Below are positions 2,299 to 15,998 of a stretch of DNA of 19,664 nt, in pieces. Positions within the stretch are counted from its first letter, which is position 1. Each line of letters begins with the position of its first letter. This DNA comes from Patescibacteria group bacterium (GTDB lineage Bacteria; Patescibacteriota; Minisyncoccia; Minisyncoccales; JAGOPM01), in NCBI GenBank assembly GCA_022710815.1, contig JAKLGF010000001.1, positions 1 to 19,664 of the forward strand, given 5' to 3'. The notes below the pieces were generated by a model. The model was not told where the DNA came from and made no database searches. It saw only the letters and a list, made by a program, of their open reading frames with translations. Made by a program: the position numbers and the translations under genes.

Positions 2299-2327
2299 TT
2301 GTTACAATAGCAATGCAATAATATACT
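2299..2327 (+). promoter_or_regulatory. Candidate promoter for rpmE-prfA
   Basis: TTGTTA (2299-2304), 17 nt, TATACT (2322-2327); an overlapping alternative -10 is TAATAT (2319-2324), which ends 6 nt before the ATG at 2331. Either choice leaves no room for an SD, so the mRNA is predicted to be leaderless or nearly so. Confidence 0.55.
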
Positions 2328-2330
2328 CGT

Positions 2331-2597: not shown

Positions 2598-2603
2598 TCT
2601 TGT

Positions 2604-3362
2604 ATGGAAGAAAATACCTTCCAACAACCAACCAAAGATTCTATTATCGTTGAAATACGAGCAGGAGTGGGCGGCGATGAAGCCGCTCTTTTTGCTGCTG
2701 ATCTTTTCAATGCTTACAGCAAATATGCCAATTCCCAAGGCTTTAATGTTTCTGTAATGGATGAAAGCTTTAATGAATTAAAAGGCTACAAGGAAGTAAT
2801 TTTCAAAATTACTGGCCCAGGAGTCTATGATAAATTCCAATATGAAGGAGGAGTTCATAGAGTCCAAAGAATTCCCAAAACAGAAAAAAGCGGGAGAATC
2901 CATACTTCCACAATTTCTGTAGCTATCATGCCTATTCCTTCTCAAACTGAAATCCAAATTCAGCCTCATGAAATTAGATTTGAAGCTTGCAAGTCAGGAG
3001 GAGCTGGAGGACAGAATGTTAACAAAAGAGAAACTGCTGTCAGAATTGTCCATATTCCAACCAATATTGCTGTTGAGTCCCAGAATTCCAGAAACCAACA
3101 ACAGAATAGAGAAAATGCCATGGCCATGTTAAGAGCTAAATTGTTTGAAATGAAAAATGCTCAGCAAAACCAAGAAATGCAGAATCAGAGAAATGCTCAG
3201 ATTGGCTCAGCAGATAGAAGTGAAAAGATTAGAACCTACAATTTCCCCCAAGATAGAATTACTGACCATAGAATAAACGAATCCTGGCATAATATTGAAA
3301 AGATAATGGAAGGAAAAATGGATAAAATGTTTAACCAATTAAAACAAGGATTTGAAAAGTAA
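2604..3362 (+). CDS. prfA: Peptide chain release factor 1, short form lacking domain 1
   Basis: RF1 recognises UAA and UAG in the ribosomal A site and triggers peptide release. The 252-aa product starts at what is about residue 100 of canonical RF1 (about 360 aa): VEIRAGVGGDEAALFA (16-31) opens domain 2. The codon-reading loop carries PKT at 91-93 (the RF1 PxT motif, not the RF2 SPF), within HRVQRIPKT. The catalytic GGQ is at 135-137 in SGGAGGQNVNK. DRSEKIRTYNFPQDRITDHRI near 208-228 is the normal C-terminal block. Domain 1, which contacts the L11/GTPase-centre region, is missing. A UAA (the rpmE stop) lies in the same frame 6 nt upstream, so no longer start exists. No SD; probably coupled to rpmE. 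Confidence 0.93.
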   Translation: MEENTFQQPTKDSIIVEIRAGVGGDEAALFAADLFNAYSKYANSQGFNVSVMDESFNELKGYKEVIFKITGPGVYDKFQYEGGVHRVQRIPKTEKSGRIHTSTISVAIMPIPSQTEIQIQPHEIRFEACKSGGAGGQNVNKRETAVRIVHIPTNIAVESQNSRNQQQNRENAMAMLRAKLFEMKNAQQNQEMQNQRNAQIGSADRSEKIRTYNFPQDRITDHRINESWHNIEKIMEGKMDKMFNQLKQGFEK

Positions 3363-3387
3363 AAACTCCGCATCTAGCGGAGTTTTT
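3361..3387. terminator. Bidirectional terminator between prfA and the transglycosylase gene
   Basis: An 11-bp perfect stem, AAAAACTCCGC (3361-3371) with GCGGAGTTTTT (3377-3387), and loop ATCTA. It overlaps the prfA stop codon, and A/T runs on both sides let it serve both convergent genes. Confidence 0.9.
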
Positions 3388-3390
3388 GAA

Positions 3391-4776
3391 TTAGAATAGT
3401 TTGGCCTGACAAGAGGCGGACATTGTTCCAGTATCAATAAAGGTCTGGATGCAGGTTGCTTTGGCTGCCACTCCTGATGGATAACCATAATCTCCCCCAA
3501 AGTATCTTTTAGCGGCTGTTCTTTCTCCATAGGCATTAGCATTGGCTCCAGCATCTTTGAGGAATAAGGAAGCAGCATACATGGCATCAGTAAAGTTCCA
3601 AGGATTGGGAGCATGGCCAACATAGGCAGAGATTTGATCTTTGAATAGATTCCAAGTGGTAGGCATGAATTGAGCTGGGCCCATTGCTCCTCCATAAGTG
3701 CATCCAATTTGAGGAGCCGGACAAGAAACAGGAGTTTTGGTAAAATCCAATCCAGCTGCTTTGCAGATTTCAATAAAGGGAGCAGCTTGATTAGGCCTCA
3801 TTACTTTTTTCCCAGCAGCGCTCAAACCATTAGCTCCAGCAATGTAGCACTTACCCACATTCTTTCCAATTCTAGTTTCCTGGGCAAAAATGGCTAAAAC
3901 AAAAGCTGGTCTAACTCCAATCTGAGTAGCTACTTTCTGAGCAATGGCCAAAGCTTCTCCAAAACTGGGAGCTTTGGTGCTATCTGAAACTCCGGCTAAT
4001 TCAAAGATTCTGGAACGAATCTTAGCTGCTTCTACTTCAGCCTGAGTTTTGTATTTAAGAAATTCAGCTTCTTGTTGTTTGGTAGTTTTTAAAACAACAT
4101 CTTTTTGCTTTTTAAGAGCTTGATTTTGTTCTTTCAAATCTTCTTTGACTTCAATAACATCTTCTAATTTATCTTTCTGATCGCTTAATTTAACTTTTTG
4201 GTTTTGAAGGTAGTCTTTTAAATCAACAGCGCTTTCTAAAAAGTCTTTGTTCTGAGAAGAAAAAGATTCCAGAGCCATCAATTCGTCCGCTATATCATTA
4301 ATATCATTCTGAGACAAAAATACTTCCAAAGCGCTTTGATTATCGCTTTGTTGTATCTCTCTTAAAAGAACAGAGAGTCTTTGTCTTAAATCTTCAATTT
4401 TGAAACTGGCTTCGCTAATTGAAGCCGATGTTTTGTTAACCTGCAAAGAAAGATCTTTGACTAAAATATTGTTCTTAGAAATTTCATTATCTAACTTGCT
4501 GATCTTGGATTGCAAAGATCCAATCTCGTTCTTAAGAGTTTTGGCTTGGCCTTGGGCTTGCTTGGCGCCTTGGTCAAAAATCTTAGCCTTGGCCTCAAAA
4601 AAAGCCAGACATTGCTTCATGTATGAGTCGCATTGGGTTTGTTCTACTGTTTTGCAAATAGCATCAATATTGGCATCCTTGCAATTAGTATCATCAGCCA
4701 CAAAAGCCGCCCAAGCAGTAGAAGCAATTAGAAGCAAAGCACATGAAAAAAGAAATGTGGTTTTGAGCATTTTCAT
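3391..4776 (-). CDS. Secreted coiled-coil lytic transglycosylase
   Basis: This is probably a murein-cleaving enzyme exported to the cell surface. The 461-aa product has an N-terminal signal peptide (MKMLKTTFLFSCALLLIAST, cleavage likely after AWA near 23), a long coiled coil (about 62-255) resembling EnvC/PcsB-type regulators, and a C-terminal SLT/MltB-like lytic transglycosylase domain (about 272-445). The likely catalytic Glu is E300 in AQETRIG, and the fold-typical GGAMGPAQFMPTTW lies at 362-375. Ten cysteines fall in the exported part (32, 41, 49, 56, 310, 338, 352, 359, 442, 456), suggesting disulfides. The frame stays open upstream to 4998, but that would overlap rplY and its terminator. 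The ATG at 4776 gives the signal peptide and lies 6 nt after TATAAT. No SD. Confidence 0.88.
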   Translation of the reverse strand: MKMLKTTFLFSCALLLIASTAWAAFVADDTNCKDANIDAICKTVEQTQCDSYMKQCLAFFEAKAKIFDQGAKQAQGQAKTLKNEIGSLQSKISKLDNEISKNNILVKDLSLQVNKTSASISEASFKIEDLRQRLSVLLREIQQSDNQSALEVFLSQNDINDIADELMALESFSSQNKDFLESAVDLKDYLQNQKVKLSDQKDKLEDVIEVKEDLKEQNQALKKQKDVVLKTTKQQEAEFLKYKTQAEVEAAKIRSRIFELAGVSDSTKAPSFGEALAIAQKVATQIGVRPAFVLAIFAQETRIGKNVGKCYIAGANGLSAAGKKVMRPNQAAPFIEICKAAGLDFTKTPVSCPAPQIGCTYGGAMGPAQFMPTTWNLFKDQISAYVGHAPNPWNFTDAMYAASLFLKDAGANANAYGERTAAKRYFGGDYGYPSGVAAKATCIQTFIDTGTMSASCQAKLF

Positions 4777-4782
4777 GCTTTG

Positions 4783-4791
4783 ATTATACCA
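4783..4791 (-). promoter_or_regulatory. Extended -10 promoter for the transglycosylase gene (leaderless)
   Basis: TGG-TATAAT on the minus strand, a perfect extended -10 with no clear -35. The ATG begins 6 nt after the hexamer, so transcription should start at or beside the A of the start codon. Confidence 0.6.
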
Positions 4792-4818
4792 AATAGTTTG
4801 ATTAGGAAAAGTGAAAAC

Positions 4819-4843
4819 AAAAAAGCCCCCTTGCGGGGGCTTT
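4819..4843 (-). terminator. Rho-independent terminator of rplY
   Basis: A 9-bp perfect stem AAAGCCCCC/GGGGGCTTT with a 4-nt loop, followed on the minus strand by a T-run. It begins 13 nt past the rplY stop. Confidence 0.92.
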
Positions 4844-4855
4844 GTAATAATCAAA

Positions 4856-5512
4856 TTATTCTTTGGTTTCTTCTCCTTCAACAACTTCTTCCTTCTTTTC
4901 CTTTTCAATCTTTTCAACTGCTTCCACATTTTCTTCAATAGCTTGAGACAATTCAGCGTCAATGTCTTGAGGAGCAGCAACCAAAGCCACAATTTCATCT
5001 TCTTTCTTTAATGCATGGACCTTGGATGACAATTTGATGTCTTTAACTAGAATTCTGGATTCAAAATCAACCAAAGCTGCAATGTCAACCTGGATTTCAT
5101 GAGGAATATCCTGAGGCAAACATTTAACATGCAATTCTGAGAAATTCTTAACCAAGGTACCCTTCAAGTCCTTAGCTGCTGGGGCTTCTCCAACAAAGAT
5201 CAAAGGAACAGCAACTTCTGTTTCTTCTGTCATGCTTGGAGCATAGAAATCAACATGGGTGATTTCTCCTGATAAAGGATCCATTTGATAATCATGAATC
5301 AAAACAGAAACCTTGTCTCCCTCAACTTGTAAGGTGATCAAAGAGGTTTCTCCGGCTTTTTTGAAAAGCTGATTGAATTGTTTTAAATCGAGTTCAATAG
5401 GAAGATTTTTATGGTTTGGACCATACAAAACAGCAGGCAAAAGTCCTTTTTCCCTAAGCTGCTCTACTTTCATTCCTGTGATTTCGCGTTTTTTAGCTGA
5501 AATTGTTTCCAT
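4856..5512 (-). CDS. rplY: 50S ribosomal protein L25 (long CTC form)
   Basis: L25 binds 5S rRNA in the large subunit. The 218-aa product is the two-domain CTC form: the N-terminal 5S-binding barrel (about 1-90, with the typical start ISAKKREITG, LLPAVLYGP and DPLSGEITHVDFY) and the C-terminal TL5-like beta domain (about 95-180, with VPLIFVGEAPAAKDLKGTLV and IPHEIQVDIA). An acidic, Lys/Glu-rich tail of about 35 residues follows. The ATG fits family N-termini; the short leader lacks an SD. It is transcribed alone between a promoter at 5539-5566 and a good terminator. Confidence 0.94.
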   Translation of the reverse strand: METISAKKREITGMKVEQLREKGLLPAVLYGPNHKNLPIELDLKQFNQLFKKAGETSLITLQVEGDKVSVLIHDYQMDPLSGEITHVDFYAPSMTEETEVAVPLIFVGEAPAAKDLKGTLVKNFSELHVKCLPQDIPHEIQVDIAALVDFESRILVKDIKLSSKVHALKKEDEIVALVAAPQDIDAELSQAIEENVEAVEKIEKEKKEEVVEGEETKE

Positions 5513-5538
5513 AGTAGTTTGTATTTTTTAACAGTTTC

Positions 5539-5566
5539 ATATTACATAAATCCCTGGATTAGTCAA
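5539..5566 (-). promoter_or_regulatory. Candidate promoter for rplY
   Basis: TTGACT (5566-5561), 16 nt, TAATAT (5544-5539) on the minus strand. Predicted leader about 20 nt, A-rich and without an SD. The promoter starts only a few bases past the murC stop, and I see no hairpin terminator between the two genes. Confidence 0.5.
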
Positions 5567-5569
5567 CCA

Positions 5570-6820
5570 TTAGAGGGTGTAGAAGTCGCCCGCGCTCATT
5601 ATGAGCAGAACTTGGCCATCTTGGAGATTGTCTTTGAGGTATTCTCTGATTTCTGCTTGAGGAACATATTTTACTCCCGCTTCCTCTGCTAGAATCCTTG
5701 AATTGATCTGGCTTTTAGCAATTTGGTCTTCTCTTCCTGCTACATCATAGATGTCAGTTAGAATGAACTCATTGGACAGTTCCTTGCAAAGAGAAAGGTT
5801 TTTCTTGAATTCTTCATGAAAAAACAAGGTTCTTTTGTATTGATGGGGCTGAAAAACACAAGTCAGGAATTTGTCTGGATATTTCTGCCTAATTCCTTTT
5901 ACAGTTTCAATTAATTGAGTTGGATGGTGGCCATAGTCAGAAATATGGATAATTATTTTCCCTTCAATATTCATTTCTTTTTCTTCTAGCCTTCTCCAAG
6001 CTCCTTGGTAATTCTCTAAAGATTTAATTGCTAACTCTTTTGAGATATCCAGAATTTCAGCTAATTTCAAAACTGCATTAGCATTTTCTTGGTTGTAGTC
6101 TCCTGGAACTTTCAAATCCAATTTGATTTGATTGCTGTAATTAATACAATTCTTTACTCCAAAATCATTTTCAATAGATTGATTCAAAATTAAATAACCA
6201 TCTTCTGGTAAATGGGAGATAAAATCATGATAAGCAGAGTTTAAATCAGCCAAGTCTTTGAAATAGTCTAAGTGGTCTATTTCAATATTGGTCAAAATGA
6301 CAATCTGGGGCCAATGATTTAAAAATGATCTTTTATATTCATCAGCTTCAATGATTAAGTATTTTGATTTCCCAGCTCTGAAATTAGTATTTCCAAATTC
6401 TTTTAATTTGGTTCCAATAATCACAGTGGGATCTAAGTCTGAATTCTCAAGCATTAAAGCAGCCATGGCAGCTGTAGTGCTTTTGCCATGGGAACCGCAA
6501 ACAGCAATAGTAAAATACTCTTTTGTTATTTCCCCCAATAATTCTGGGGAAGTCTTGCACACAATTCCTAATTCTTGAGCTTGGATATATTCTGGATTAT
6601 CAGGATTAACTGCTGGGCTAAAAGCAACGATGTCTGGCTTTACTTGATCAATGTTTTCTTTGTTCTGATTAAGAAAAACAGAAATTCCCTTTTCTTTTAA
6701 CAATTGAGTTATTTCACTCTCAACCAAATCTGAGCCATAAACATCATGGCCTTGTGATTTGAAATATTGGGCAACAGCAGAAATTCCAATGCCCCCAATT
6801 CCGATGAAATAGTATTTCAT
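5570..6820 (-). CDS. murC: UDP-N-acetylmuramate-L-alanine ligase
   Basis: MurC adds the first amino acid, L-alanine, to UDP-MurNAc in the cytoplasm, so the organism makes its own peptidoglycan precursor. All Mur-ligase landmarks are visible: N-terminal Rossmann GIGGIGISAVA (7-17), ATP-binding CGSHGKSTT (108-116; GTHGKTTT in most MurC), EADEY (158-162), LTNIEIDHLDY (176-186), the C-terminal DYGHHPT motif, and FQPHQYKRT. At 416 aa it is shorter than typical MurC (about 450-490). The related tripeptide ligase Mpl shares these motifs and cannot be fully excluded, though length and context favour MurC. The ATG overlaps the thpR stop as ATGA, so translation is coupled. Confidence 0.9.
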   Translation of the reverse strand: MKYYFIGIGGIGISAVAQYFKSQGHDVYGSDLVESEITQLLKEKGISVFLNQNKENIDQVKPDIVAFSPAVNPDNPEYIQAQELGIVCKTSPELLGEITKEYFTIAVCGSHGKSTTAAMAALMLENSDLDPTVIIGTKLKEFGNTNFRAGKSKYLIIEADEYKRSFLNHWPQIVILTNIEIDHLDYFKDLADLNSAYHDFISHLPEDGYLILNQSIENDFGVKNCINYSNQIKLDLKVPGDYNQENANAVLKLAEILDISKELAIKSLENYQGAWRRLEEKEMNIEGKIIIHISDYGHHPTQLIETVKGIRQKYPDKFLTCVFQPHQYKRTLFFHEEFKKNLSLCKELSNEFILTDIYDVAGREDQIAKSQINSRILAEEAGVKYVPQAEIREYLKDNLQDGQVLLIMSAGDFYTL

Positions 6821-7392
6821 AATTGTTTCAATGGATAACTTTGAATAACTTCGTATTCGGCTCCAGATCTTTTCAATTCGCTCCTCATTACTTCAACAGA
6901 CTGGACAATAAAGTCAAGTTCAGCACAAACATCAACATCAGGCTTGGTTTCTGGATCAATGTTTCTAAATTCCATGGTATTTATTCTGCCCAAAGTCAAA
7001 TGGGGGATAAATTCCCTATCTTCTAACTTAAAACCATTTTTAGTTAAAGCTGATTGCAATTGTTTTTGCATTTCCATCAAAGAATCAGATTCAGCTTTAA
7101 TCCAAACCAGCCTGGGTGGGAAATGTTTGGGCGGGCCATATTCAGTCTGAGTCAAATGCAAATCAAATTGCTCAAAATCAGGAATTATCTGGCTGCAGAT
7201 TTCTAAAACCTTGGGCAAATCTTTTTCCAAGATTCCTCCCATAAAGGCCAAGGTCAAATGCATATTCTCTCGATTAACCCATTTAACAATATTTTCCTGA
7301 AATTGAATATCTAAACCATTTTGAAGACGCTCTAAATGGTCTTTGGCCTCATCGGGCAGATTAATAGCAATGAATATTCTTTGAATCATCAT
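6817..7392 (-). CDS. thpR: RNA 2',3'-cyclic phosphodiesterase (LigT/2H family)
   Basis: 2H phosphoesterases of this family hydrolyse 2',3'-cyclic phosphate RNA ends to 2'-phosphates. The 191-aa product is full family length, begins QRIFIAINLPDEAKDHL, and carries both HxTx signatures, HLTL at 45-48 and HLTL at 131-134, at family spacing. GPPKHFPPRLVWI (about 86-98) is also typical. Two ATGs stand in tandem (7392 and 7389). The first lies 7 nt after a perfect TATAAT, implying a leaderless mRNA, and neither has an SD. It is the first gene of an operon with murC (4-nt overlap), an unusual pairing of RNA processing and cell-wall synthesis. Substrate in vivo unknown. Confidence 0.9.
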   Translation of the reverse strand: MMIQRIFIAINLPDEAKDHLERLQNGLDIQFQENIVKWVNRENMHLTLAFMGGILEKDLPKVLEICSQIIPDFEQFDLHLTQTEYGPPKHFPPRLVWIKAESDSLMEMQKQLQSALTKNGFKLEDREFIPHLTLGRINTMEFRNIDPETKPDVDVCAELDFIVQSVEVMRSELKRSGAEYEVIQSYPLKQL

Positions 7393-7399
7393 TGTTCTT

Positions 7400-7427
7400 A
7401 TTATATTTATATTTCCCCAAAATTCAA
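7400..7427 (-). promoter_or_regulatory. Promoter of the thpR-murC operon
   Basis: TTGAAT (7427-7422), 16 nt, TATAAT (7405-7400) on the minus strand. The thpR ATG is 7 nt after the -10, so a leaderless transcript is predicted. Confidence 0.6.
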
Positions 7428-7432
7428 ATTTA

Positions 7433-7441
7433 TGGTATGAT
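7433..7441 (+). promoter_or_regulatory. Extended -10 promoter of the PHP gene
   Basis: TGG-TATGAT with the ATG 6 nt downstream, predicting a leaderless mRNA. The corresponding -35 area falls within the spacer of the divergent thpR promoter, so the two polymerase sites overlap. Confidence 0.55.
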
Positions 7442-7447
7442 TGCTAT

Positions 7448-8116
7448 ATGAAAATAGACATGCATTGCCATTCCTGGTATTCCAATGATGGAAATGCTTC
7501 CCCGGAAGCCTTGATTTTAGCTGCCAAACGCAAGGGTTTAGATGGCATAGCAATAACAGACCACAATACTACAAAAGCCTGGCCAGAGGCCATTTCTGCC
7601 TCAAAAAAGCATGGTTTTAACCTGATTTTAGGCCAAGAGCTTAAAATAAAGGAAAATGGCAAAACAATTGGGGAAATCTTGGGCTATTTCACTCAACAAG
7701 AGATTAATCCCAAGGGCAAAACAGCCAAGCAGGTTGTTGATGAAATCCATAGCCAAGGAGGCATTGCCATACTAGCCCATCCTTTTAATTGGAAAAAACC
7801 ATTTCACAATCCCCAATCAATGAAAGGATTAGTTGATGGTTCTGAAGCTTTTAATGCCCGCTCTCAAACCAAAGATGGCAACAAAAAAGCAGAGCAGTTT
7901 GCTCAAGATAATAATTTCATTTTCACTGCTGGATCTGATTGCCATTCTACTTTTGAAATAGGAAATGCTTATCTAGAATCCCCTGCTACTAACTTACAAG
8001 ATTTCAAAAGAGATTTATTAAACAAGAGAGTTAAGGTTGTTGGCAAGCAATCAGGCTGGATTGTTCAAATATTTGCCTTCACTGGAAAAGTGAGAAATTT
8101 GTTTTGGAAACCATAA
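7448..8116 (+). CDS. PHP-domain metal-dependent phosphoesterase
   Basis: The PHP family contains polymerase/histidinol-phosphatase-like metal-dependent phosphoesterases, including nucleoside 3',5'-bisphosphate phosphatases and histidinol phosphatases. The 222-aa product starts at once with motif I, HCHS (H6, H8). Motif II is ITDHN (D38, H39), E64 follows in GQELK, then AHPF (H111) and GSDCHS (D164, H166). All expected metal ligands are therefore present. It is shorter than the roughly 280-aa RnmV/TrpH type and lacks their insert. I cannot assign the substrate. It is a single-gene unit between a leaderless promoter and a bidirectional terminator. Confidence 0.88.
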   Translation: MKIDMHCHSWYSNDGNASPEALILAAKRKGLDGIAITDHNTTKAWPEAISASKKHGFNLILGQELKIKENGKTIGEILGYFTQQEINPKGKTAKQVVDEIHSQGGIAILAHPFNWKKPFHNPQSMKGLVDGSEAFNARSQTKDGNKKAEQFAQDNNFIFTAGSDCHSTFEIGNAYLESPATNLQDFKRDLLNKRVKVVGKQSGWIVQIFAFTGKVRNLFWKP

Positions 8117-8128
8117 TACAGACATATT

Positions 8129-8164
8129 AAAAGCCCGGAACTCTTATGAGTCCGGGCTTTTTTG
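8129..8164. terminator. Bidirectional terminator between the PHP gene and the zinc-module gene
   Basis: A stem of about 14 bp, AAAAGCCCGG-(A)-ACTC against GAGTCCGGGCTTTT, with one bulged A, a TTAT loop and T-runs in both directions. It serves convergent genes ending at 8116 and 8182. Confidence 0.9.
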
Positions 8165-8181
8165 TTTCTACGAAGTTCTTG

Positions 8182-10407
8182 CTATTTAACGATCATGGGT
8201 CCTTTCAAGAAAGGAAAGAGCTGCTTTCTTTTTTCTGGGTCAGATTCATTTTGGCAAGCTCTGGTTTGTCTTTCAAAGCATTCCAAACAAATCCATTCTC
8301 CAGTCACAGGGCTAGCATAATCAAGATAGCTGAATGTATGGCAACCTCCAGGACACTTTTCCATTCTTTTGGTTCTATGGACTCCCTCTGGATCTCCATG
8401 CATCAAACTCTTTTTCTGCATCTTCTCTCTGATTTGTTCAGGTGTGTAAACAACTTGGGAAGTGTCGTCTTCTGGGGAGTCAGATTTGGAAACTCTTTTT
8501 TTCTTGGCTTTGATTACAATACCAGTTTCTCCATCAACAATTCCCTCAGGAGAAGCATCTGGCTTGGCTCCATTGCCAAGCGCTCGCTCTACAAACTCAG
8601 CTCGAGACAGCTCCTTTGTTTTTGGAACCTCTTGGGCTTTCTGGACAATCTTTTGGACTGACTTGTTTTCGGACTTGATTACTCTCTCAGAGATCTCTTT
8701 GGAAGTCTTGTCTTTATTCTTTTCCTTTTCTTTATCAGCACACTTTTGGCAAATGCCTGATTTGTTCCTGTGCCCGAGTTTGGCTCCGCAAGCGCAATAC
8801 CTCTCTGGAATTGGATTAATGGACAATCTTTGCTTAAGCTTGTTAGAGCAAACTCCGCAAACAGGATCTCCGTTTTCAAGGCGAGTACTGACTGTCCTTA
8901 TTTCCTTGCAGAAAGAGCATCTTTCTTTTCTTGATTCTTTCTCGCATTTATGGCAAAGAAGAGTCATGTTAATTCCGCGGCGCTTTCTTTTGGGAAGTGG
9001 GGTTCCGCATTTTTCGCAGACTGCGGGTTTTCTCTTTTTTTCAAGATAGCCCTTTTTGAGTTCTGCCTTCCTTATTTTTTTGCATTCATCACAAAGAATT
9101 TCTTGACCTGGGAAAATCTTCTTACGGATAACTTCTTTTCCGCAAGAGCATTTAACAATAATGCCCCCGCGTTTTTTGATTCTCTCAGGATCTTTTTGAT
9201 CTCGCTTCCATTCAATGTAATGCTTGCGGCAAAGGAATGGGACTCCCTTTATCTTTCTTTTGTATTTTCTTGGAAGAATCTCTCCGCACACTTCGCATCG
9301 TATTACTATTTCTGCATTGACTTCTTCCCGCTCTTTCTTTGCAGCTTGGCTTTTTTCTTTTCGTCTGGCCATGCGATCTTTTCGGCAACACTCTGTGCAT
9401 TTGCCTGTCTTGTTGTTCTTGGGTATTTTTGCTCCACACTGACAATACTCGGCTTGCCATTGATCAGAGCTAGAATCTTGGCTTTTGTTTACTTTCACAT
9501 CTTTTGCGCACTTTGCGCAAAGTCCGCTTTTGTTAGCATTGCCAAGTTTGGCTCCACATTTACAAAACTTTGCTTTCTTGGCAATAGCTTCTTGTTCGCA
9601 TTTTTGACAAAGTCCGCTTTTGTTAGCATTGCCAAGTTTGGCTCCGCATTTGCAGATCTTGGAATGTTTTTTGAGCTTAACTTCTTTTTTTTCTTCTGCT
9701 TTTGGCAATGTTTTTTCTTTGCTGCCATGGCGGAGAATCTTTTTTCGACACTTTTCGCAAAACAACTTGGTTCCAACAGGAACAGGATCATCTCTGAAAA
9801 CCGGACGGCCGCACTTGGAGCAACGAAGCTTATTCGGATCGCAGAATTCTATTGAAGGATCCAGTGTTCCAATAACCTTTTGCATTGTCCCAAACGGAAG
9901 TTCTTGGATTTGATTAGGATGGTTTTTATTCCATTCCTTATCCTTTTCTGTTTTGACTTGCTTGTTATAGCAAGCTCGACAGATTTTTGTTTTGTTATCT
10001 TTCAAGCTTATGCATTCAAGCAAATCAAACTCTTTGCATTCTGGGCATCTTTGGGCCAAGCTCTTTTCCTTACAATTCTCTTCTTCTCTGCTTTCTTTTT
10101 GTTCTTCTGGTTGGCTATAGTATTTCTTCTCATCTTTTAAGACAGAAATACAATTAGGACAAAGCAATTTTTTGCCGGGGCGAGCTTTTCTTTTACGATC
10201 AAGCAATTCAGCTCCGCATTCTTGGCAAAAGAATTTTTTGGGCTTTGCTTGGCTTGCCTCAATTCTTGCCTTTTCTTGTTCTTTTCCGCTTTTCTCTGTT
10301 TTTTGCGCGCACTTTGCGCAAAGGCCACTTTTATTGTGATTGCCAATAATTGTTCCGCAGCCATTGGCACATAAGCGCCAAGCTCCTGGTTTCCGATTGT
10401 AGGTCAT
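8182..10407 (-). CDS. Giant zinc-module array protein, unknown function
   Basis: An unrecognised 741-aa, Lys- and Cys-rich protein with 13 candidate four-ligand zinc modules: residues 13-33, 61-86, 121-146, 196-220, 252-270, 282-300, 322-340, 371-396 (last ligand His), 420-442, 464-488, 497-520, 538-556 and 685-710. Five (1st, 5th, 6th, 7th, 12th) share the compact form CxCGAKLGNxNKSGLCxKC; most others have CxxC, about 20 basic residues, then LCxxC. Modules 5 and 6 are near-identical. Linkers are charged; 557-684 is long, probably disordered and module-free. No signal peptide, membrane segment or obvious catalytic domain. Nucleic-acid binding is inferred from the basic ribbons. A strong GGGAGG SD sits 7 nt before the ATG. 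CpG is about 2.7 per 100 bp against about 1 in core genes. Confidence 0.85.
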   Translation of the reverse strand: MTYNRKPGAWRLCANGCGTIIGNHNKSGLCAKCAQKTEKSGKEQEKARIEASQAKPKKFFCQECGAELLDRKRKARPGKKLLCPNCISVLKDEKKYYSQPEEQKESREEENCKEKSLAQRCPECKEFDLLECISLKDNKTKICRACYNKQVKTEKDKEWNKNHPNQIQELPFGTMQKVIGTLDPSIEFCDPNKLRCSKCGRPVFRDDPVPVGTKLFCEKCRKKILRHGSKEKTLPKAEEKKEVKLKKHSKICKCGAKLGNANKSGLCQKCEQEAIAKKAKFCKCGAKLGNANKSGLCAKCAKDVKVNKSQDSSSDQWQAEYCQCGAKIPKNNKTGKCTECCRKDRMARRKEKSQAAKKEREEVNAEIVIRCEVCGEILPRKYKRKIKGVPFLCRKHYIEWKRDQKDPERIKKRGGIIVKCSCGKEVIRKKIFPGQEILCDECKKIRKAELKKGYLEKKRKPAVCEKCGTPLPKRKRRGINMTLLCHKCEKESRKERCSFCKEIRTVSTRLENGDPVCGVCSNKLKQRLSINPIPERYCACGAKLGHRNKSGICQKCADKEKEKNKDKTSKEISERVIKSENKSVQKIVQKAQEVPKTKELSRAEFVERALGNGAKPDASPEGIVDGETGIVIKAKKKRVSKSDSPEDDTSQVVYTPEQIREKMQKKSLMHGDPEGVHRTKRMEKCPGGCHTFSYLDYASPVTGEWICLECFERQTRACQNESDPEKRKQLFPFLKGPMIVK
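9518..9645. repeat. 38-bp direct repeat, 90-bp period, inside the zinc-module gene
   Basis: Identical 38-bp copies at 9518-9555 and 9608-9645. The offset is exactly 90 bp, 30 codons, matching the spacing of modules 5 and 6. This is a recent in-frame internal duplication, not a CRISPR. Confidence 0.9.
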
Positions 10408-10461
10408 TCTTTCCTCCCTTCGTAGTAATTAAATTGGTAAAAATCTATCAGATTTTTCAGT

Positions 10462-10489
10462 GCTATACCATAACATACGAGCTAACTAA
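10462..10489 (-). promoter_or_regulatory. Candidate promoter for the zinc-module gene
   Basis: TTAGTT (10489-10484), 16 nt, TATAGC (10467-10462) on the minus strand, with a TGG extension directly before the -10. Predicted leader about 50 nt, ending in the strong SD. Confidence 0.45.
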
Positions 10490-10492
10490 TGT

Positions 10493-10508
10493 AAATGTCT
10501 ATACATTT
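10493..10508. repeat. Inverted repeat between two divergent promoters
   Basis: AAATGT-ctat-ACATTT. It lies between the zinc-module promoter and the membrane-protein promoter and overlaps the first bases of the latter's -35 (10507). It could be an operator for either gene; short enough to be chance. Confidence 0.35.
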
Positions 10509-10534
10509 GACACAAACTAAAGATATGGTATGCT
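10507..10534 (+). promoter_or_regulatory. Candidate promoter for the two-TM protein gene
   Basis: TTGACA (10507-10512), 16 nt, TATGCT (10529-10534). The -10 contains the first possible ATG (10530), arguing that this codon is not translated and that translation starts at 10626, after a leader of about 85 nt. A GCTGT-tta-ACAGC hairpin (10598-10610) stands 5 nt before the SD. Confidence 0.6.
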
Positions 10535-10625
10535 CAAATTGCTTCGGGAATACTTTATCCCCCAAGATATCAAAGGGTGTGAAAGCGACAAGAAGCAGCT
10601 GTTTAACAGCATAATAGGAGTAGTA

Positions 10626-11525
10626 ATGAAAAACAAAGAGAATGTTGCGTTTGAAAAAGTAAGGCTTAACTTTGTTCGAAGAAGAATCTTCGGAAAAAAG
10701 AAAGTTGGCCTCTGTGGAGCCATTGCTGATGTTTTAGGAGTTATTTTGGCCCTAATCGAAATTGTCAGCTTCATAGCATCAGCTAAGGGAGCAGGCTTAA
10801 TCGATTTTTGGTTAAAGCCTTTAATCCCCCACTGGGTCGCTCTAGTCATTCTACCCTTCTGGATTTCCTGCATTGTTGTTTGCTATTGGATGCACTATAG
10901 CGACAACAAAAAGAAATTCGAGGGATTCAGCCGAATTCTCGACAATAGCCATAATTATCCGGTTGTTGCCGATGGTGAAATCTCAGACAGCAGAACTCTT
11001 CTTATTGGCAAAGAAACACCAACCATTAGTCTTGGAATTTTCGCCTTTGTCGCAGTATATCGTCCCTGTAATGGATCTGAAGAAGAATGCTGGAGAATTG
11101 AAAGAAGGTTTGCTATCAAACGTCCAGGGAAAATAAATCACTCAAGCATGAGATTCCCTTATTTCCCTGACCCGAGAAATCCTGCATTTCTTGATCCCAA
11201 TCTCTCAACAAAAGAAGAAACGTCAGGCGAAAAACCCAAAAGTTCGGCCAAAGTCGAATGGGGCATTGATGTCGGAAGCAATTCCAACTTGCCAATTTGT
11301 GACAATGAACGAAAAGTCACTGCAAGGATTTCCCTCAAAGACGACCCTCAAATCTATCAAAAAGCCTCGGAAGGACAAGCAAAAATCTTTTTTGTTTTTG
11401 TCTTACGCGGACCCAGAAACTGTCTTGGCACTCTGATCTGCGATGACGACATCTTGAATTCTTTGGTCTCTAACAATCCAGAGAAATTCAAGGAAGCGAG
11501 CCCCACTTACTACTGGCCCGAATAA
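10626..11525 (+). CDS. Two-TM membrane protein of unknown function
   Basis: An unrecognised 299-aa protein. The N-terminus is basic (KVRLNFVRRRIFGKKK). Two hydrophobic helices follow at about 31-52 and 68-90, and then a soluble domain of about 209 residues. The positive-inside rule puts both termini in the cytoplasm, so the large domain would be cytoplasmic. It has no visible catalytic motif. The frame is open back to 10530, but that ATG lies in a -10 box; AGGAG 5 nt before the ATG at 10626 decides the start. CpG is about 3.4 per 100 bp, the codon choice differs from core genes, and the leader and SD resemble the divergent zinc-module gene, suggesting the pair belongs together. A terminator follows. 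Confidence 0.8.
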   Translation: MKNKENVAFEKVRLNFVRRRIFGKKKVGLCGAIADVLGVILALIEIVSFIASAKGAGLIDFWLKPLIPHWVALVILPFWISCIVVCYWMHYSDNKKKFEGFSRILDNSHNYPVVADGEISDSRTLLIGKETPTISLGIFAFVAVYRPCNGSEEECWRIERRFAIKRPGKINHSSMRFPYFPDPRNPAFLDPNLSTKEETSGEKPKSSAKVEWGIDVGSNSNLPICDNERKVTARISLKDDPQIYQKASEGQAKIFFVFVLRGPRNCLGTLICDDDILNSLVSNNPEKFKEASPTYYWPE

Positions 11526-11533
11526 CAAAACAA

Positions 11534-11562
11534 AAAAGGCAGAGAATCAATCTCTGCCTTTT
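11534..11562. terminator. Bidirectional terminator after the two-TM gene
   Basis: A 12-bp perfect stem AAAAGGCAGAGA/TCTCTGCCTTTT with loop ATCAA and flanking A and T runs. It serves convergent genes ending at 11525 and 11574. Confidence 0.92.
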
Positions 11563-11573
11563 AATGTGCTTAA

Positions 11574-12167
11574 TTATTTCATTTCCGACAAAATCTTGTA
11601 GTTTTTGTAGAATCTTTGCCAAGCAGTAATAGTGGAACCAATGGCAATAATCCACAAACACCAGAACAAAATATCTGGCTTGCCATTGGAGGCAGATAAT
11701 AATCCGATAATTATTAAAATCAATCTTTCTTTTCTTTCCATTAATCCCCCGCCTGATTTTCCTCCATCAGCCTTGGCATGCTTGGAGATATAGCTGGCAA
11801 CCATAAAGGCAGAACAAGCTAAAAAGGAAGGAATAATTAAATTAACTGTTGAAGGAACTAAAATGAAAGCCAAGTACCAGGAGATTTCTGTTACTTTATC
11901 AGTAGTGGAATCTAGCAAAGCTCCAAATTTTGTTTCTTTTTGATTAGCTTTAGCCACTGCTCCATCAATTCCATCGCAAATTCCTGAAATCAAAATCATT
12001 AAAATGGCTAAACCATATTCTCCTATGGAGATATAGTAGGCAGCCCAAAAACCAAAAACCAAAACTAAAAAGGTGACAAAATTGGCATGAATGCCAATTC
12101 CTCCCAGTGTTTTACCAATAGAAGTTGTTAGTCCTGATAATAATTTTCTCAATTGGTCTGTGAGCAT
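11574..12167 (-). CDS. CDP-alcohol phosphatidyltransferase (PIP/AIP-synthase-like)
   Basis: An integral membrane enzyme that moves a phosphatidyl group from a CDP-lipid to an alcohol head group. The 197-aa product carries the family motif at residues 65-90: D65, D68-G69, A72-K73 (usually Ala-Arg), G82, D86 and D90, with correct spacing. Around it are about six hydrophobic helices. LLDSTTDKVTE and GLMERKERL (141-149) resemble inositol-phosphate-using members (phosphatidyl- or archaetidyl-inositol-phosphate synthases) more than PgsA; this is from memory of the families. A TTG at 12200 would add 11 residues inside the upstream gene; the ATG at 12167, 1 nt past that gene's TAA, is preferred. Last gene of a three-gene operon. 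Confidence 0.85.
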   Translation of the reverse strand: MLTDQLRKLLSGLTTSIGKTLGGIGIHANFVTFLVLVFGFWAAYYISIGEYGLAILMILISGICDGIDGAVAKANQKETKFGALLDSTTDKVTEISWYLAFILVPSTVNLIIPSFLACSAFMVASYISKHAKADGGKSGGGLMERKERLILIIIGLLSASNGKPDILFWCLWIIAIGSTITAWQRFYKNYKILSEMK

Positions 12168-12168
12168 G

Positions 12169-12963
12169 TTATTTCTTGAAATTATTGTATTCTTGTTCAA
12201 TCAATTTAGCAATCTTTGCTGCTGCTTCTTCTTGAGTAAAGCCTTCCAGGCTTCCCATGCTGGGCCAATCATTGGCATCAACACAATATGGGACTCCGGT
12301 TTCTGAGATTATGAAGTCTCCGCCAAAGATTTTTAATCCAGTAGCAGTTTTAGTTAACATGACTTGCCTATTAATTTCTGAAACTTGAGCTTGGAATTTT
12401 TCTCTAGCAGCTGGGGCTAAAATTACTTCCCCATCAATGGCATAATATTTAATTGATTCTCCAATAATGAATTCTTGAACCAAGATTTCATCAATGCCTT
12501 GAGTTTTGTATTCAGCCATGGCTTTATCAAATTCTTCCTGAGTGGTTACTTTAAACCAGAATTCATGGCGGTTGGCTGGTTTCAAAATCTTGGGTCCATT
12601 AAAAGAAGCAAAATCCACCTCCTCTATTTTCTTAAACTCAGTCTGAGGGATATTAGCTCCCAATTCCATCATTTTTAAATAGGTGGTTTTTCTATCAAAA
12701 GAAAATCTAATGGCTTTAGGGGCATTGATAACAAACCAACCTTGATTTTGTTTATCAAACAAGGCATCATTGATTTCTTTTCCCCTAGCCATTGTAAAGA
12801 CCAAATCTACTGGCTGGCTGAAATCAAATTGTTCTGAGAAGACATTACTAGTTTCAAACCCTAATTTAGTTAACTCTTGAGCAGTCAAATCCAGAATTCT
12901 TTGATCAGATCCTGGTTTGCCAGCTAATTTTAATTCGCGGTAAATACCGATTGCTTTGGGCAT
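12169..12963 (-). CDS. ATP-grasp family ligase or kinase
   Basis: The 264-aa product looks like a small ATP-grasp enzyme, which joins or phosphorylates substrates through acyl-phosphate or phosphoryl transfer. An N-terminal pre-ATP region ends in INAPKAIRFSFDRKTTYLKM (79-98, the usual start of the ATP-binding domain). PKILKPA (124-130) carries a candidate ATP-binding lysine, VQEFIIG (162-168) the hinge, and GGDFII plus VDANDWPS (D216, D229, N231) the metal-binding end. It is most like RimK/D-Ala-D-Ala-ligase-type or ITPK-type folds; the substrate is unknown. It starts 4 nt past the HAD gene's stop and ends 1 nt before the phosphatidyltransferase, so the three are co-translated. TATTAT lies 6 nt before the ATG, a possible internal promoter. 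Confidence 0.82.
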   Translation of the reverse strand: MPKAIGIYRELKLAGKPGSDQRILDLTAQELTKLGFETSNVFSEQFDFSQPVDLVFTMARGKEINDALFDKQNQGWFVINAPKAIRFSFDRKTTYLKMMELGANIPQTEFKKIEEVDFASFNGPKILKPANRHEFWFKVTTQEEFDKAMAEYKTQGIDEILVQEFIIGESIKYYAIDGEVILAPAAREKFQAQVSEINRQVMLTKTATGLKIFGGDFIISETGVPYCVDANDWPSMGSLEGFTQEEAAAKIAKLIEQEYNNFKK

Positions 12964-12967
12964 ATTG

Positions 12968-13645
12968 TTATAATATTTCTCCTGCTTTTTTGAGGAATTC
13001 AGGAAAACCTCCTTTAATAATTAAATCTGTATTTTCTTCTAATTCTTTGACCTGAGAATATTGGCTAGGCATGCCAATGACAAATAACCCAGCTGCTTTA
13101 GCAGACTTGGCTCCAGAAACCATGTCTTCAAAAGACAAACAATCCTGGGGCTCTAATTCTAATTGCTGGCAAGCATACAAATACATGGCTGGATCTGGCT
13201 TGCCTAATCCCCCAGCTTCTTTTTGAGAAGACAATTTTTCTTTTTCAAAATATTGTTCTAATCCAGCAGCCTTTAATTTCAAAACTAATTCAGGAATATC
13301 TTTGGCTGAGCAAACAGTCATTTTAATTCCCTTTTCTTTGAAAAACCTAATTGCTTCTAAAACTCCTGGCATTAATTCTATTTCCTCATTAGTAAATAGT
13401 TCTTCTAAAATATCTGCGGCTGCTTGGGCTAATTCTCCCACAGAATAGGTTATTAAAGGATATTTTCTTTTCAAAAGCATTGGGATTTCATCAGCTGATG
13501 ATTTCCCGCAATAATCTTGGGCATATTCTTCTGCAGATACTGTGATTCCAAAAGGAGCCAAAACAATATCCCACTTCTTCTTTTGCAAGACTTCGCTATC
13601 AGCTAGAGTTCCGTCAAAATCAAAAACAACTCCTTTGTATTTCAT
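12968..13645 (-). CDS. HAD-superfamily hydrolase (beta-phosphoglucomutase-like)
   Basis: A soluble phosphatase or phosphomutase of HAD subfamily IA. The 225-aa product has motif I FDFDGTLAD (D9 nucleophile, D11 acid/base), a helical cap (about 16-90), motif II VCSAKD (about 116-121), motif III lysine in LGKPDPAMY, and motif IV FEDMVSGAKSAKAAG (Glu-Asp). The substrate cannot be told from sequence. It heads the operon with the ATP-grasp and phosphatidyltransferase genes, so a sugar- or polyol-phosphate substrate is an attractive guess. The ATG at 13645 lies 6 nt after a TACACT -10; there is no SD, predicting a leaderless mRNA. Confidence 0.88.
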   Translation of the reverse strand: MKYKGVVFDFDGTLADSEVLQKKKWDIVLAPFGITVSAEEYAQDYCGKSSADEIPMLLKRKYPLITYSVGELAQAAADILEELFTNEEIELMPGVLEAIRFFKEKGIKMTVCSAKDIPELVLKLKAAGLEQYFEKEKLSSQKEAGGLGKPDPAMYLYACQQLELEPQDCLSFEDMVSGAKSAKAAGLFVIGMPSQYSQVKELEENTDLIIKGGFPEFLKKAGEIL

Positions 13646-13651
13646 GATTTA

Positions 13652-13680
13652 AGTGTAAATAAAAAGCGGCTGCTATACAA
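13652..13680 (-). promoter_or_regulatory. Leaderless promoter of the HAD/ATP-grasp/lipid operon
   Basis: TTGTAT (13680-13675), 17 nt, TACACT (13657-13652), with the ATG 6 nt further. The -35 lies in the loop of the upstream gene's terminator and the spacer holds its descending arm and T-run, so the two signals share the same DNA. Confidence 0.5.
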
Positions 13681-13691
13681 GCCAGCCGCTT
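13657..13691 (-). terminator. Terminator of the secreted-protein gene
   Basis: A 9-bp perfect stem AAGCGGCTG/CAGCCGCTT with a 10-nt loop, followed on the minus strand by TTTTTATTT. It lies about 65 bases past the stop at 13756 and overlaps the next operon's promoter. Confidence 0.85.
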
Positions 13692-13755
13692 AGGTTTTAC
13701 CTTTTTACTTGCCCAAACAAGCAAAGTTATTACAATTGATTTTTAAAGATCTGGT

Positions 13756-14493
13756 TCAGGGAAGCGTTCTGACTTCCCTTATCTGCCCGGTATCGGACCC
13801 ACTTCCATTCTGCGCAATGACTCGGTAGTAGAAAATAGTATCCTTGGACAGACCTTCAGCCTGAATCGGATACTCGCCAGAGGTAGCGGTTCCATCATAC
13901 TGAAAGATCGTGATTTCACGATAATTATCGCTCTCCAAGATTTCCTTGCTTGGGGCGACTTCCATGAGAAGATAAACAGTGTCATTTGTTCCTGTGGAAT
14001 TGACTATTCCGCAAGCTTCAAACGAGCCAGAACCGGTTTGTACACACTCTCCGGTTTCAACATCGACAACAGGTGTAGGCGGAGTGACAAAATCAATGTC
14101 AGCATCGTCTACTTTGGATCCAAGTACTGGGTCATAGTGTCTGACTGTAAAACCATACTTGGTTTCAGGATCCAAGGATGTGCTTGGTTCAAGGACTACT
14201 TCTTGTTCTTGGGAATCCTTTTGCAATCTGATTGCCTTGGATTTAATGATCGTAGTTACGCCTTTTTTACTAGGACCTGTTCCAACAAGAGAAAACGTGG
14301 CGCTGTTGTTGCCATTCCAATTCTGAACTTTGACTTTGACAACCAAGTTGTCGTAAGTAACCGTAGCGGTTACTGCAAGGTCAATTGAGCTAGAATGTCT
14401 GGTGATTTCAATCTGAGTTGCAGCTTTTGTATTCCCTGCAAACATGGACAATGCCATTATGGCAACCAATACAGCTAGAATCTTCTTTTTCAC
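13756..14493 (-). CDS. Secreted beta-rich protein, fibronectin-III-like C-terminus
   Basis: An unrecognised 245-aa exported protein. The signal peptide is clear: MKKKILAVLVAIMALSMFAG then NTKA, with cleavage probably after residue 24. The mature part is rich in Thr, Ser and Val with alternating hydrophobics, suggesting beta-sandwich domains. About 25-137 includes LDPETKYGFTVRHYD and about 145-245 includes LSKDTIFYYRVIAQN, both typical of the F-strand region of fibronectin-III-like domains. Two cysteines (about 149 and 160) could form a disulfide. No LPXTG or second membrane segment, so it is free or bound by partners. The start is GTG, decided by GAGGAGG 5 nt upstream. CpG is about 3.5 per 100 bp. 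Single-gene unit. Confidence 0.82.
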   Translation of the reverse strand: MKKKILAVLVAIMALSMFAGNTKAATQIEITRHSSSIDLAVTATVTYDNLVVKVKVQNWNGNNSATFSLVGTGPSKKGVTTIIKSKAIRLQKDSQEQEVVLEPSTSLDPETKYGFTVRHYDPVLGSKVDDADIDFVTPPTPVVDVETGECVQTGSGSFEACGIVNSTGTNDTVYLLMEVAPSKEILESDNYREITIFQYDGTATSGEYPIQAEGLSKDTIFYYRVIAQNGSGSDTGQIREVRTLP

Positions 14494-14562
14494 AAAATCC
14501 TCCTCTATAGGATATAGAATTATCGCCCTTTTTGTTTTGGGCCAATTAAGGTGCGACTACTA

Positions 14563-14568
14563 ATTATA
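14563..14568 (-). promoter_or_regulatory. Candidate -10 for the secreted-protein gene
   Basis: TATAAT on the minus strand, giving a predicted leader of about 60 nt that ends in the strong SD. No convincing -35. Confidence 0.4.
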
Positions 14569-14574
14569 ACGTTT

Positions 14575-14645
14575 AAAACCCGGTTTTGTTACAAAATAGG
14601 GCAAAAATCCTTAATTTTTAAGGGTTTGGGCCCTAGTTATCCACA
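14575..14645. other. Palindrome-rich intergenic stretch with one perfect DnaA-box 9-mer
   Basis: The 215-bp gap between the secreted-protein gene and the PadR-like gene holds, in order, AAAACC-c-GGTTTT (14575-14587), TTTTG-tta-CAAAA (14584-14596), a 10-bp hairpin with one mismatch (14605-14627), GGGCCC (14628-14633) and TTATCCACA (14637-14645). The last equals the E. coli DnaA box consensus. Function unknown. Confidence 0.4.
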
Positions 14646-14682
14646 AAAAAGCCCCTTTTAGAAATAGGCCTAAAAAGGGGCT
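14645..14682 (-). terminator. Terminator of the minus-strand PadR-like gene
   Basis: AGCCCCTTTTAG pairs with CTAAAAAGGGGCT (one bulge) around an 8-nt loop, followed on the minus strand by a T-run. It lies about 25 bases past the stop at 14709. Confidence 0.85.
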
Positions 14683-14708
14683 AAAAATGACTGTCAATTG
14701 TGAATAAT

Positions 14709-15011
14709 TTACATTTTTTGAAGCAATTCCTGGACAAATTTCTTGGCTTTCTCTAATTCAGATACTCCTTTGGGAGTAGTAGTAAATGATTCCCTGCCTG
14801 AAAACTTTCCTTTGTGGATATATCCCTGAGAAGACAATTTGTTTAAAACAAAAGTCAGGGTCATGTTGCTATTAGGCAAGAAATTGAATTTTTCAAATAC
14901 ATCTCGCTTTAAATCTTCAACAATTACTTCTTTGTTAACCCCTAGGCTCAAAGCATAAACCCAAAGGTTTTCTTCTGTAGCCATTCTTTTGAATCTTTGA
15001 AATGGTTCCAT
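14709..15011 (-). CDS. PadR-like winged-helix regulator, copy 1
   Basis: A 100-aa protein of winged-helix size. Helices cover about 1-70, with a recognition-helix candidate near NMTLTFVLNKLSSQG (49-63), then a wing (YIHKGKFSGRESFTTTPKG) and a final helix SELEKAKKFVQELLQK suited to dimerisation. These match PadR/MarR-type regulators of about 100 aa. It is a paralogue of the divergent gene at 15100: both start M-x-P-x-QR-x-K and carry (E/D)NLW(V/I)Y near residue 15. No SD; a TATACA lies 5 nt before the ATG, but a better promoter sits further upstream, beyond the start of the opposite transcript. Probably a DNA-binding autoregulator; ligand unknown. Confidence 0.75.
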   Translation of the reverse strand: MEPFQRFKRMATEENLWVYALSLGVNKEVIVEDLKRDVFEKFNFLPNSNMTLTFVLNKLSSQGYIHKGKFSGRESFTTTPKGVSELEKAKKFVQELLQKM

Positions 15012-15024
15012 ATGTTTGTATAAT
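14997..15024 (+). promoter_or_regulatory. Promoter of the plus-strand PadR-like gene, inside its paralogue's 5' end
   Basis: TTGAAA (14997-15002), 16 nt, TATAAT (15019-15024): 5/6 and 6/6 matches. It spans the start codon of the minus-strand paralogue (15009-15011), so polymerase here would block that gene. Confidence 0.6.
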
Positions 15025-15059
15025 TTTCTGGGCTGGCTTGCTAGCCTTCCCTTTTTATC

Positions 15060-15088
15060 ATATTATTACTTAATAACTGTCCTGTAAA
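15060..15088 (-). promoter_or_regulatory. Candidate promoter of the minus-strand PadR-like gene
   Basis: TTTACA (15088-15083), 17 nt, TAATAT (15065-15060) on the minus strand. It lies within the leader of the plus-strand gene, so the two promoters face each other and their 5' RNAs would overlap by about 20 nt. Confidence 0.45.
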
Positions 15089-15092
15089 GGAC
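15079..15092. repeat. Inverted repeat over SD and -35, possible operator
   Basis: GTCCT-gtaa-AGGAC covers the -35 of the minus promoter and contains the AAAGGA SD of the gene at 15100. As DNA it could be an operator; as RNA it could mask the SD. Confidence 0.4.
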
Positions 15093-15099
15093 TACTCAT

Positions 15100-15417
15100 A
15101 TGCTACCAATCCAGCGCCTAAAAAAATCAAACACAATAGATAATTTGTGGATTTATGTTCTCACCTTGATCAAAGAGGCTCCTAAAAACGAGCCCATTTA
15201 TGCTTGGCAAATTAGAAGCGCTGTCAAAAAGAAATTTGGATTTCTTCCTGGAGAAATTACTGCTTACCGAGTACTCTACAGACTAGAAAAAGATGGATTT
15301 GTTAAAAGTCAGCAAGCTGAAATCAAAAGATTTTACAAAATAACAGATAAGGGAATAAAGGAATTGGATAATGCTGTTAAATTCTACAAAGAAACTCTTG
15401 ATCTAATTAAAGGTTAA
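15100..15417 (+). CDS. PadR-like winged-helix regulator, copy 2
   Basis: A 105-aa protein with the layout of a single-domain PadR-type repressor: helices from about 12, YAWQIRSAVKKKFGF (34-48), a recognition helix at ITAYRVLYRLEKDG (53-66, compare the PadR pattern of tyrosine and leucine after the turn), a wing (VKSQQAEIKRFYKITDKG, 68-85) and a C-terminal helix for dimerisation. It shares N-terminal sequence with the divergent gene at 14709. AAAGGA lies 8 nt before the ATG. The downstream gene begins 1 nt after its TAA, so they are translationally coupled, as is common for PadR regulators and their targets. Effector unknown. Confidence 0.82.
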   Translation: MLPIQRLKKSNTIDNLWIYVLTLIKEAPKNEPIYAWQIRSAVKKKFGFLPGEITAYRVLYRLEKDGFVKSQQAEIKRFYKITDKGIKELDNAVKFYKETLDLIKG

Positions 15418-15418
15418 T

Positions 15419-15871: not shown

Positions 15872-15887
15872 ACAATATCCTTTTTTT
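15860..15887 (+). terminator. Terminator of the PadR-like operon
   Basis: An 11-bp perfect stem AAAAAAGGATA/TATCCTTTTTT with loop GACAA and a run of seven T. The ascending arm encodes the last residues and part of the stop codon of the preceding gene. Confidence 0.88.
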
Positions 15888-15927
15888 GTTTTCTAATTCT
15901 CCACAACTATCAATTTTCTTTTTTTAA

Positions 15928-15933
15928 TATAAT
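15928..15933 (+). promoter_or_regulatory. Candidate -10 for the HNH-like gene
   Basis: A perfect TATAAT, no clear -35. The leader would be about 60 nt and ends in AAGGAGG, 5 nt before the ATG at 15999. Confidence 0.45.
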
Positions 15934-15998
15934 AGAGTAAGAAAACATTCTTTTCCAAATTATACTGATCAGAGAATCTAGAAAATAAGGAGGACCCT

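Follow-up and report, generated by a model that had tools for sequence, protein, structure and literature searches.

Zinc fingers usually occur singly or in small numbers in bacterial proteins, and evolvable poly-finger arrays are known mainly from eukaryotes, where small fingers duplicate and diverge along the chain. Known DksA/TraR proteins have one finger each. The ClpX zinc-binding domain and the zinc-bearing ribosomal proteins were also counted among the systems nearest to the one described here. In the GATA finger, 17-18 residues separate the two ligand pairs, and the C2H2 finger has a fold other than the treble clef. One study describes LIM as a tandem pair of treble clefs (PMC4999995), and another states that the zinc finger of I-TevI helps set the distance to the cleavage site (PMC2988022). 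Here we describe P0001, a 741-aa protein with 13 four-ligand modules in one chain, encoded in a 19,664-nucleotide stretch of a Patescibacteria group bacterium (assembly GCA_022710815.1, contig JAKLGF010000001.1, positions 1 to 19,664; hereafter the window). We compare it with these systems and with two relatives, P0003 and P0004, and consider it somewhat probable that the array is an acquired, multivalent nucleic-acid binder built of treble-clef modules.

Modules of the array protein

The coordinates given for the gene in the initial annotation of this DNA, 8182-10407, were correct, and the gene lies on the minus strand. Thirteen four-ligand modules, as that annotation had counted, were identified by a regular expression of the form C-x1-3-C-x10-20-C-x2-[CH], whereas 1000 shuffles of the P0001 residues gave a mean of 0.55 modules and a maximum of 4. 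The 52 ligand positions comprise 51 of the 56 cysteines and one histidine, the fourth ligand of M8 (this module ends CRKH); the remaining cysteines are at 112, 132, 189, 341 and 718. The gene and the parts of its product are as follows.

8182..10407, minus strand: coding sequence of the zinc-module array protein P0001, 741 aa (ATG at 10407, stop ends at 8182)
10309..10371, minus strand: M1, compact variant CxxxC...CxxC, aa 13-33 (model helix from residue 31)
10150..10227, minus strand: M2, long basic, aa 61-86 (absent from P0003; segment 70% identical in P0004)
9970..10047, minus strand: M3, M13 class, aa 121-146 (regular expression and class alignment)
9748..9822, minus strand: M4, long, aa 196-220 (segment 81% identical to P0003)
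9598..9654, minus strand: M5, compact, aa 252-270 (regular expression and class alignment)
9508..9564, minus strand: M6, compact, aa 282-300 (tandem repeat of M5, 18 of 19 residues identical)
9388..9444, minus strand: M7, compact, aa 322-340 (regular expression and class alignment)
9220..9297, minus strand: M8, long basic, fourth ligand His, aa 371-396 (regular expression and class alignment)
9082..9150, minus strand: M9, long with CxC, aa 420-442 (regular expression and class alignment)
8944..9018, minus strand: M10, long basic, aa 464-488 (TraR/DksA-like, sub-threshold)
8848..8919, minus strand: M11, aa 497-520 (GATA-like, sub-threshold)
8740..8796, minus strand: M12, compact followed by a long helix, aa 538-556 (sequence class and model)
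8356..8739, minus strand: module-free linker, aa 557-684 (mostly low model confidence)
8278..8355, minus strand: M13, C-terminal, aa 685-710 (segment 681-741 80% identical to P0004, 44% to P0003)

Two module types had been proposed, but four sequence classes were seen. The compact class, approximately CxCGAKLxxxNKSGxCxKC, contains the expected five members (M1, M5, M6, M7 and M12), although the consensus first quoted for it is exact only in M5 and M6; M7 and M12 deviate from it and M1 has CxxxC. M2, M4, M8, M9 and M10 form the long basic class, CxxCG...RK...LLCxxC. The terminal module had been regarded as distinct, yet M13 aligns with M3, and the class of these two has invariant C, P, C, L, S, I, C and C across six aligned sequences. 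M11 is a class of its own. The 128-residue module-free stretch at 557-684 was correctly placed, and the predicted local distance difference test score of the model is below 50 for residues 566-676.

Predicted fold and comparison with known families

AlphaFold models, which contain no metal, were read as secondary structure and confidence. In the model of P0001 a helix begins one residue past the third ligand in all 13 modules, and the same register was present in five of five modules in a separate model of M8-M12; in several modules the strands before the helix are single bridge residues. The second ligand pair is therefore predicted to lie at the N-terminus of a helix, as in a treble clef, and by this reading of the models the modules look treble-clef-like rather than beta-ribbon. 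A zinc beta-ribbon array was considered as the main description and rejected, as the model has a helix after every second ligand pair. The predicted modules are presumably occupied by zinc. Neither model gave a Foldseek match at E 0.001 or better, and the highest probability among the matches listed was that of a GATA finger (0.80).

No Pfam or NCBIfam family reached its curated cut-off for P0001 or its fragments. The best PHROGs match, in a collection that has no curated cut-off, was to phrog_54 (DksA-like) at E 0.011, and the anti-phage defence models of PADLOC gave 0 families at E ≤1 for P0001, P0003, P0004 or a neighbouring 331-aa product. As anticipated, no nuclease or other catalytic domain was found in the Pfam, NCBIfam and PHROGs scans of P0001. 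The earlier impression that no described protein has this architecture agrees with the library searches, which gave no full-length match to a characterised family, and among the matches listed from the open-licence PMC literature no such bacterial protein was found in titles or abstract openings.

Fragments of single modules matched the generic zinc-finger models DZR, Zn_Ribbon_1, DZR_2 and zf_Tbcl_Rhp7 at E 0.0003-0.001, under their cut-offs. M2 and M10 have the CxxCG-x17/18-CxxC-like form of the DksA/TraR C4 finger (PF01258, TIGR02419), but these matches were sub-threshold (16.6 bits for the M2 fragment against the PF01258 cut-off of 24.9, and 17.3 for P0004 against the TIGR02419 cut-off of 59.7), and P0001 differs from DksA/TraR proteins in having 13 modules in one chain. 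M11 matched a GATA profile from the PDB at E 0.54, and neither the full chain nor the M11 fragment gave a Pfam GATA row at E ≤10; M11 departs from the GATA spacing with 16 residues between its ligand pairs, and this likeness is limited to one of the 13 modules. The compact module had also been likened to short ribbons beside HNH-type nucleases. A weak echo of a likeness to homing-nuclease fingers was seen in the compact size shared with the I-TevI linker finger (PF22635) and in the I-TevI_ZnF score of the M5-M6 fragment (15.8 bits, cut-off 27 bits), but the predicted fold looks treble-clef-like and not a beta-ribbon, and neither GIY-YIG nor another nuclease domain was found in P0001. Eukaryotic C2H2 poly-zinc-finger and LIM-array proteins are likewise long chains of small fingers; P0001 differs in being bacterial and in having C4 modules of four classes, with no significant homology found.

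Relatives and distribution

In a space of about 5.8 billion protein sequences, the search with P0001 returned its own cluster, P0002, with three linker substitutions (at 153, 160 and 165), and only two other family members: P0003 (649 aa, 51% identity, query coverage 86%) and P0004 (533 aa, 43% identity, query coverage 38%), both known as proteins without genomic context. Repeat searches with the family alignment and with P0004, in which about 8000 candidates sharing most words were scored, found no further members; the search with the alignment did not list P0004. P0003 has 11 modules, and P0004 has 7 complete modules and one without its last cysteine. The ligand residue is the same at 44 of 45 aligned positions in P0003 (the one exception lies in M6, a module that P0003 does not have) and at 29 of 32 in P0004, where several modules are poorly aligned.

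The family alignment (A1) matched only the own genome, both among 247 genomes of the order and among 379 sampled from the phylum, and a common protein of the order was therefore rejected as a description. P0001 matched three of 100 genomes, its own and two others (G077 at 18.9 bits and G026 at 17.6), whose loci contained no frame with two or more modules. Compact modules matched nine of 290 genomes at E ≤0.01, the eight non-own genomes with one match each below 19 bits, and none was found at E ≤10 in other open reading frames (ORFs) of the own genome. Long modules matched 28 of 196 genomes including the own, with one or two matches of at most 25.4 bits in each of the others; six of the frames concerned have a PELPEV start that we take to be Fpg-like, and five are presumably UvrA-like. 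The frames were read on the plus strand alone, at a fixed place in each locus, so that among L037-L065 minus-strand matches and loci near a contig start were misread. The M3/M13 class was found in one of 196 genomes, again the own. No relatives were found in genome contigs, in four scans of viral contigs, or in 50,697 phage and 72,556 plasmid records.

Module duplication and mosaicism

M5 and M6 are identical at 18 of 19 residues, and the 71 nt around them are 86% identical in DNA, with a step of 90 nt; P0003 has a single module in place of this pair. M2 is shared by P0001 and P0004 (70% identity) and is not in P0003. Both compact modules of P0004 come after an M11-like module, and their assignments are close calls (scores of 76 vs 74 and 72 vs 70).

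Over modules 8-12, identity to P0001 is 138/197 for P0003 and 74/178 for P0004, whereas over residues 611-741 it is 33/73 and 88/118. This reversal between the two regions was statistically assessed by Fisher tests (P 2.2e-4 for P0003 and 1.8e-8 for P0004), with three sequences and with sites treated as independent. Counterparts of M8-M10 are missing in P0004, so that its matches there fall on other modules; a comparison of M11-12 with 681-741 avoids this problem and gave P values of 1.8e-3 and 2.1e-4. The three proteins thus look mosaic in their aligned sequences, with modules 8-12 of P0001 resembling P0003 and its C-terminus resembling P0004, and cassette exchange between family members would be the simplest account.

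Proposed function

P0001 has a net charge of about +78, and positive charge is common to P0001, P0003 and P0004. Within each module class, residues that lie between the ligands are conserved. As these features, and part of the weak relatives of the modules, favour nucleic-acid binding, the explanation that we prefer, and hold to be somewhat more probable than improbable, is that an acquired gene encodes a multivalent binder of DNA or RNA composed of 13 treble-clef modules. P0001 would be a cytoplasmic chain of 13 small treble-clef zinc fingers, each folded round one zinc with two ligands on a knuckle or hairpin and the other two where a helix begins. Several modules would use their basic residues jointly to grip DNA or structured RNA, and the C-terminal module, together with the flexible linker of 128 residues, would form an exchangeable tail, perhaps in contact with a partner; binding to DNA or to RNA is, like the role of the tail, an inference. 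The array would change by module duplication, loss and exchange, its gene having been gained into a chromosomal junction along with a small membrane-protein gene.

Array gene and its presumed insertion site

The signals around the array gene, and the insert in which it lies, are as follows.

10413..10418, minus strand: Shine-Dalgarno sequence GGGAGG, 5 nt before the array-gene ATG (read directly)
10439..10457, strand not assigned: perfect 8-bp inverted repeat with a 3-nt spacer, candidate operator or RNA hairpin, in the upstream region common to both divergent genes (array-gene leader)
8130..8160, strand not assigned: terminator-like hairpin where the PHP and array genes converge (identified by eye)
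11535..11561, strand not assigned: terminator-like hairpin separating the 331-aa gene from the CDP-alcohol phosphatidyltransferase gene (identified by eye)
8117..11573, strand not assigned: insert of 3.46 kb between the PHP and CDP-alcohol phosphatidyltransferase genes, containing the array gene and the 331-aa gene
10530..11525, plus strand: orphan gene whose 331-aa product has two hydrophobic stretches, transcribed divergently to the array gene in the same insert

Promoter-like boxes were located upstream of the array gene at 10495-10467; this is weak evidence, as the region holds 7 such sites against 4.1 expected. The two diverged homologues, the Shine-Dalgarno sequence, this weak promoter-like site and the terminator-like hairpins at both convergent ends support the reading of the 741-aa ORF as a real gene. 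The inverted repeat had a P of 0.015 against 2000 shuffles and is a single site in its own genome, allowing up to 2 mismatches. A WGATAR motif within the palindrome was given no weight; the plus strand of the window alone has 30 such motifs.

The 331-aa gene had no Pfam, NCBIfam or PADLOC match, and at E 1e-5 it was found in one of 60 genomes, its own, and in none of the 59 relatives. A PHP match was present in 36 of 60 genomes, and eight regions picked from the better matches were inspected. The junction was closed in five of the eight, with the two flanking matches 26-179 bp apart. The clean case is G032, where the order of PHP, CDP-alcohol phosphatidyltransferase, 264-aa ORF homologue, HAD and winged-helix genes is that of the window save one 245-aa gene, and where 26 bp separate the PHP and transferase matches, compared with 3.46 kb in the window. 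In the other four closed junctions the transferase match is only 28-31% identical and may therefore be a paralogue. In two further relatives, G007 and G001 (the latter from the same family), either the two genes lie apart or only the first of them was observed. In G038 a different 216-aa ORF (L034 2091-2741) lies between them, and the junction may therefore be a recurrent insertion place.

Codon bias was 0.127 bits per codon for the array gene and 0.034 for the 331-aa gene, compared with 0.22-0.39 for 11 of the 16 other window genes; three others (zr179, fn245 and orf211) did not exceed the array gene. Judged from codon usage, the weak bias of the two insert genes is compatible with acquisition and is no proof of it. 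No integrase or transposase was recognised in the insert, nor any terminal inverted repeats among the 25 of 42 pairs listed. Acquisition of the array gene, rather than its loss in relatives, is probable.

Elsewhere in the window, two divergent winged-helix-like genes (14709-15417), one with a PadR match, both match the same places in relatives, and matches to them occur close to the PHP gene as well in L029, L030, L031, L032, L033 and L035. Two further genes (13756-14493 and 15999-16634) have weak codon bias and no clear family, one with a sub-threshold Pur_ac_phosph_N match. A 252-aa ORF with GGQ (2604-3362, plus strand) directly follows another ORF; we take the former to be peptide-chain release-factor-like and the latter L31-like. 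Usual release factors have about 360 aa, and this one seems to be without their N-terminal domain.

Alternative explanations

Treble clefs also hold protein partners, as in LIM, ClpX zinc-binding and RING-type domains, and the array might gather several copies or partners, possibly together with the 331-aa product at the membrane. LIM, RING, PHD and ClpX-like rows were numerous among the weak matches, but the high net charge and the GATA finger at the head of the listed Foldseek matches argue against such a scaffold, which we consider rather unlikely. Unlikely to a further degree is a mobile-element or phage accessory, with P0001 as targeting, regulatory or anti-host cargo made mosaic by recombination between elements. 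The position of the insert between genes that are adjacent in five of eight relatives (with a different gene in a sixth), the mosaicism of the three proteins, the codon bias of both insert genes, weaker than in most window genes, and the DksA-like PHROG would all fit. Set against them are the lack of relatives in the viral, phage and plasmid collections, of a recognised integrase, transposase or terminal repeat within the scope given above, the gene's own Shine-Dalgarno sequence and terminator-like hairpins, and the equally low or lower codon bias of three other window genes.

A metal reservoir, in which 13 sites would buffer zinc for a reduced-genome cell, accounts for the cysteines and not for the other features. 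The 51 cysteines and one histidine and the retention of ligands in P0003 suit a store; the class-by-class conservation between ligands is unneeded by one, C4 treble clefs usually hold zinc tightly, and P0004 has lost the last ligand of one module (CSCGKRLAHHNRSGLCQEG). Five of the 10 neighbouring proteins have a Pfam row, in no case that of a metal transporter, and the other five have no row. We regard this explanation as very improbable. A bolder form of nucleic-acid binding would make P0001 the bacterial equivalent of the poly-zinc-finger factors of eukaryotes. Its C4 treble-clef modules, of several classes, would read DNA or RNA combinatorially, and the array would gain new specificities as modules are duplicated, lost or exchanged as cassettes; it would possibly be autoregulated through the inverted repeat in the leader (10439-10457). 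We consider this distinctly improbable as a whole. Multivalent binding of DNA or RNA by the 13 modules is the explanation that we retain.

Significance

The single fold is already known; what is new is the architecture of the array and its evolution. If P0001 binds nucleic acid specifically, it would represent a new C4 finger scaffold; metal storage or protein scaffolding, should either be its role, would be unusual for an array of this kind. The three family members have clear module correspondences, which makes direct comparison possible. A chain of 13 modules that was kept, duplicated and apparently recombined suggests that evolvable poly-finger arrays are able to arise in bacteria, and here in a reduced genome with little room to spare.
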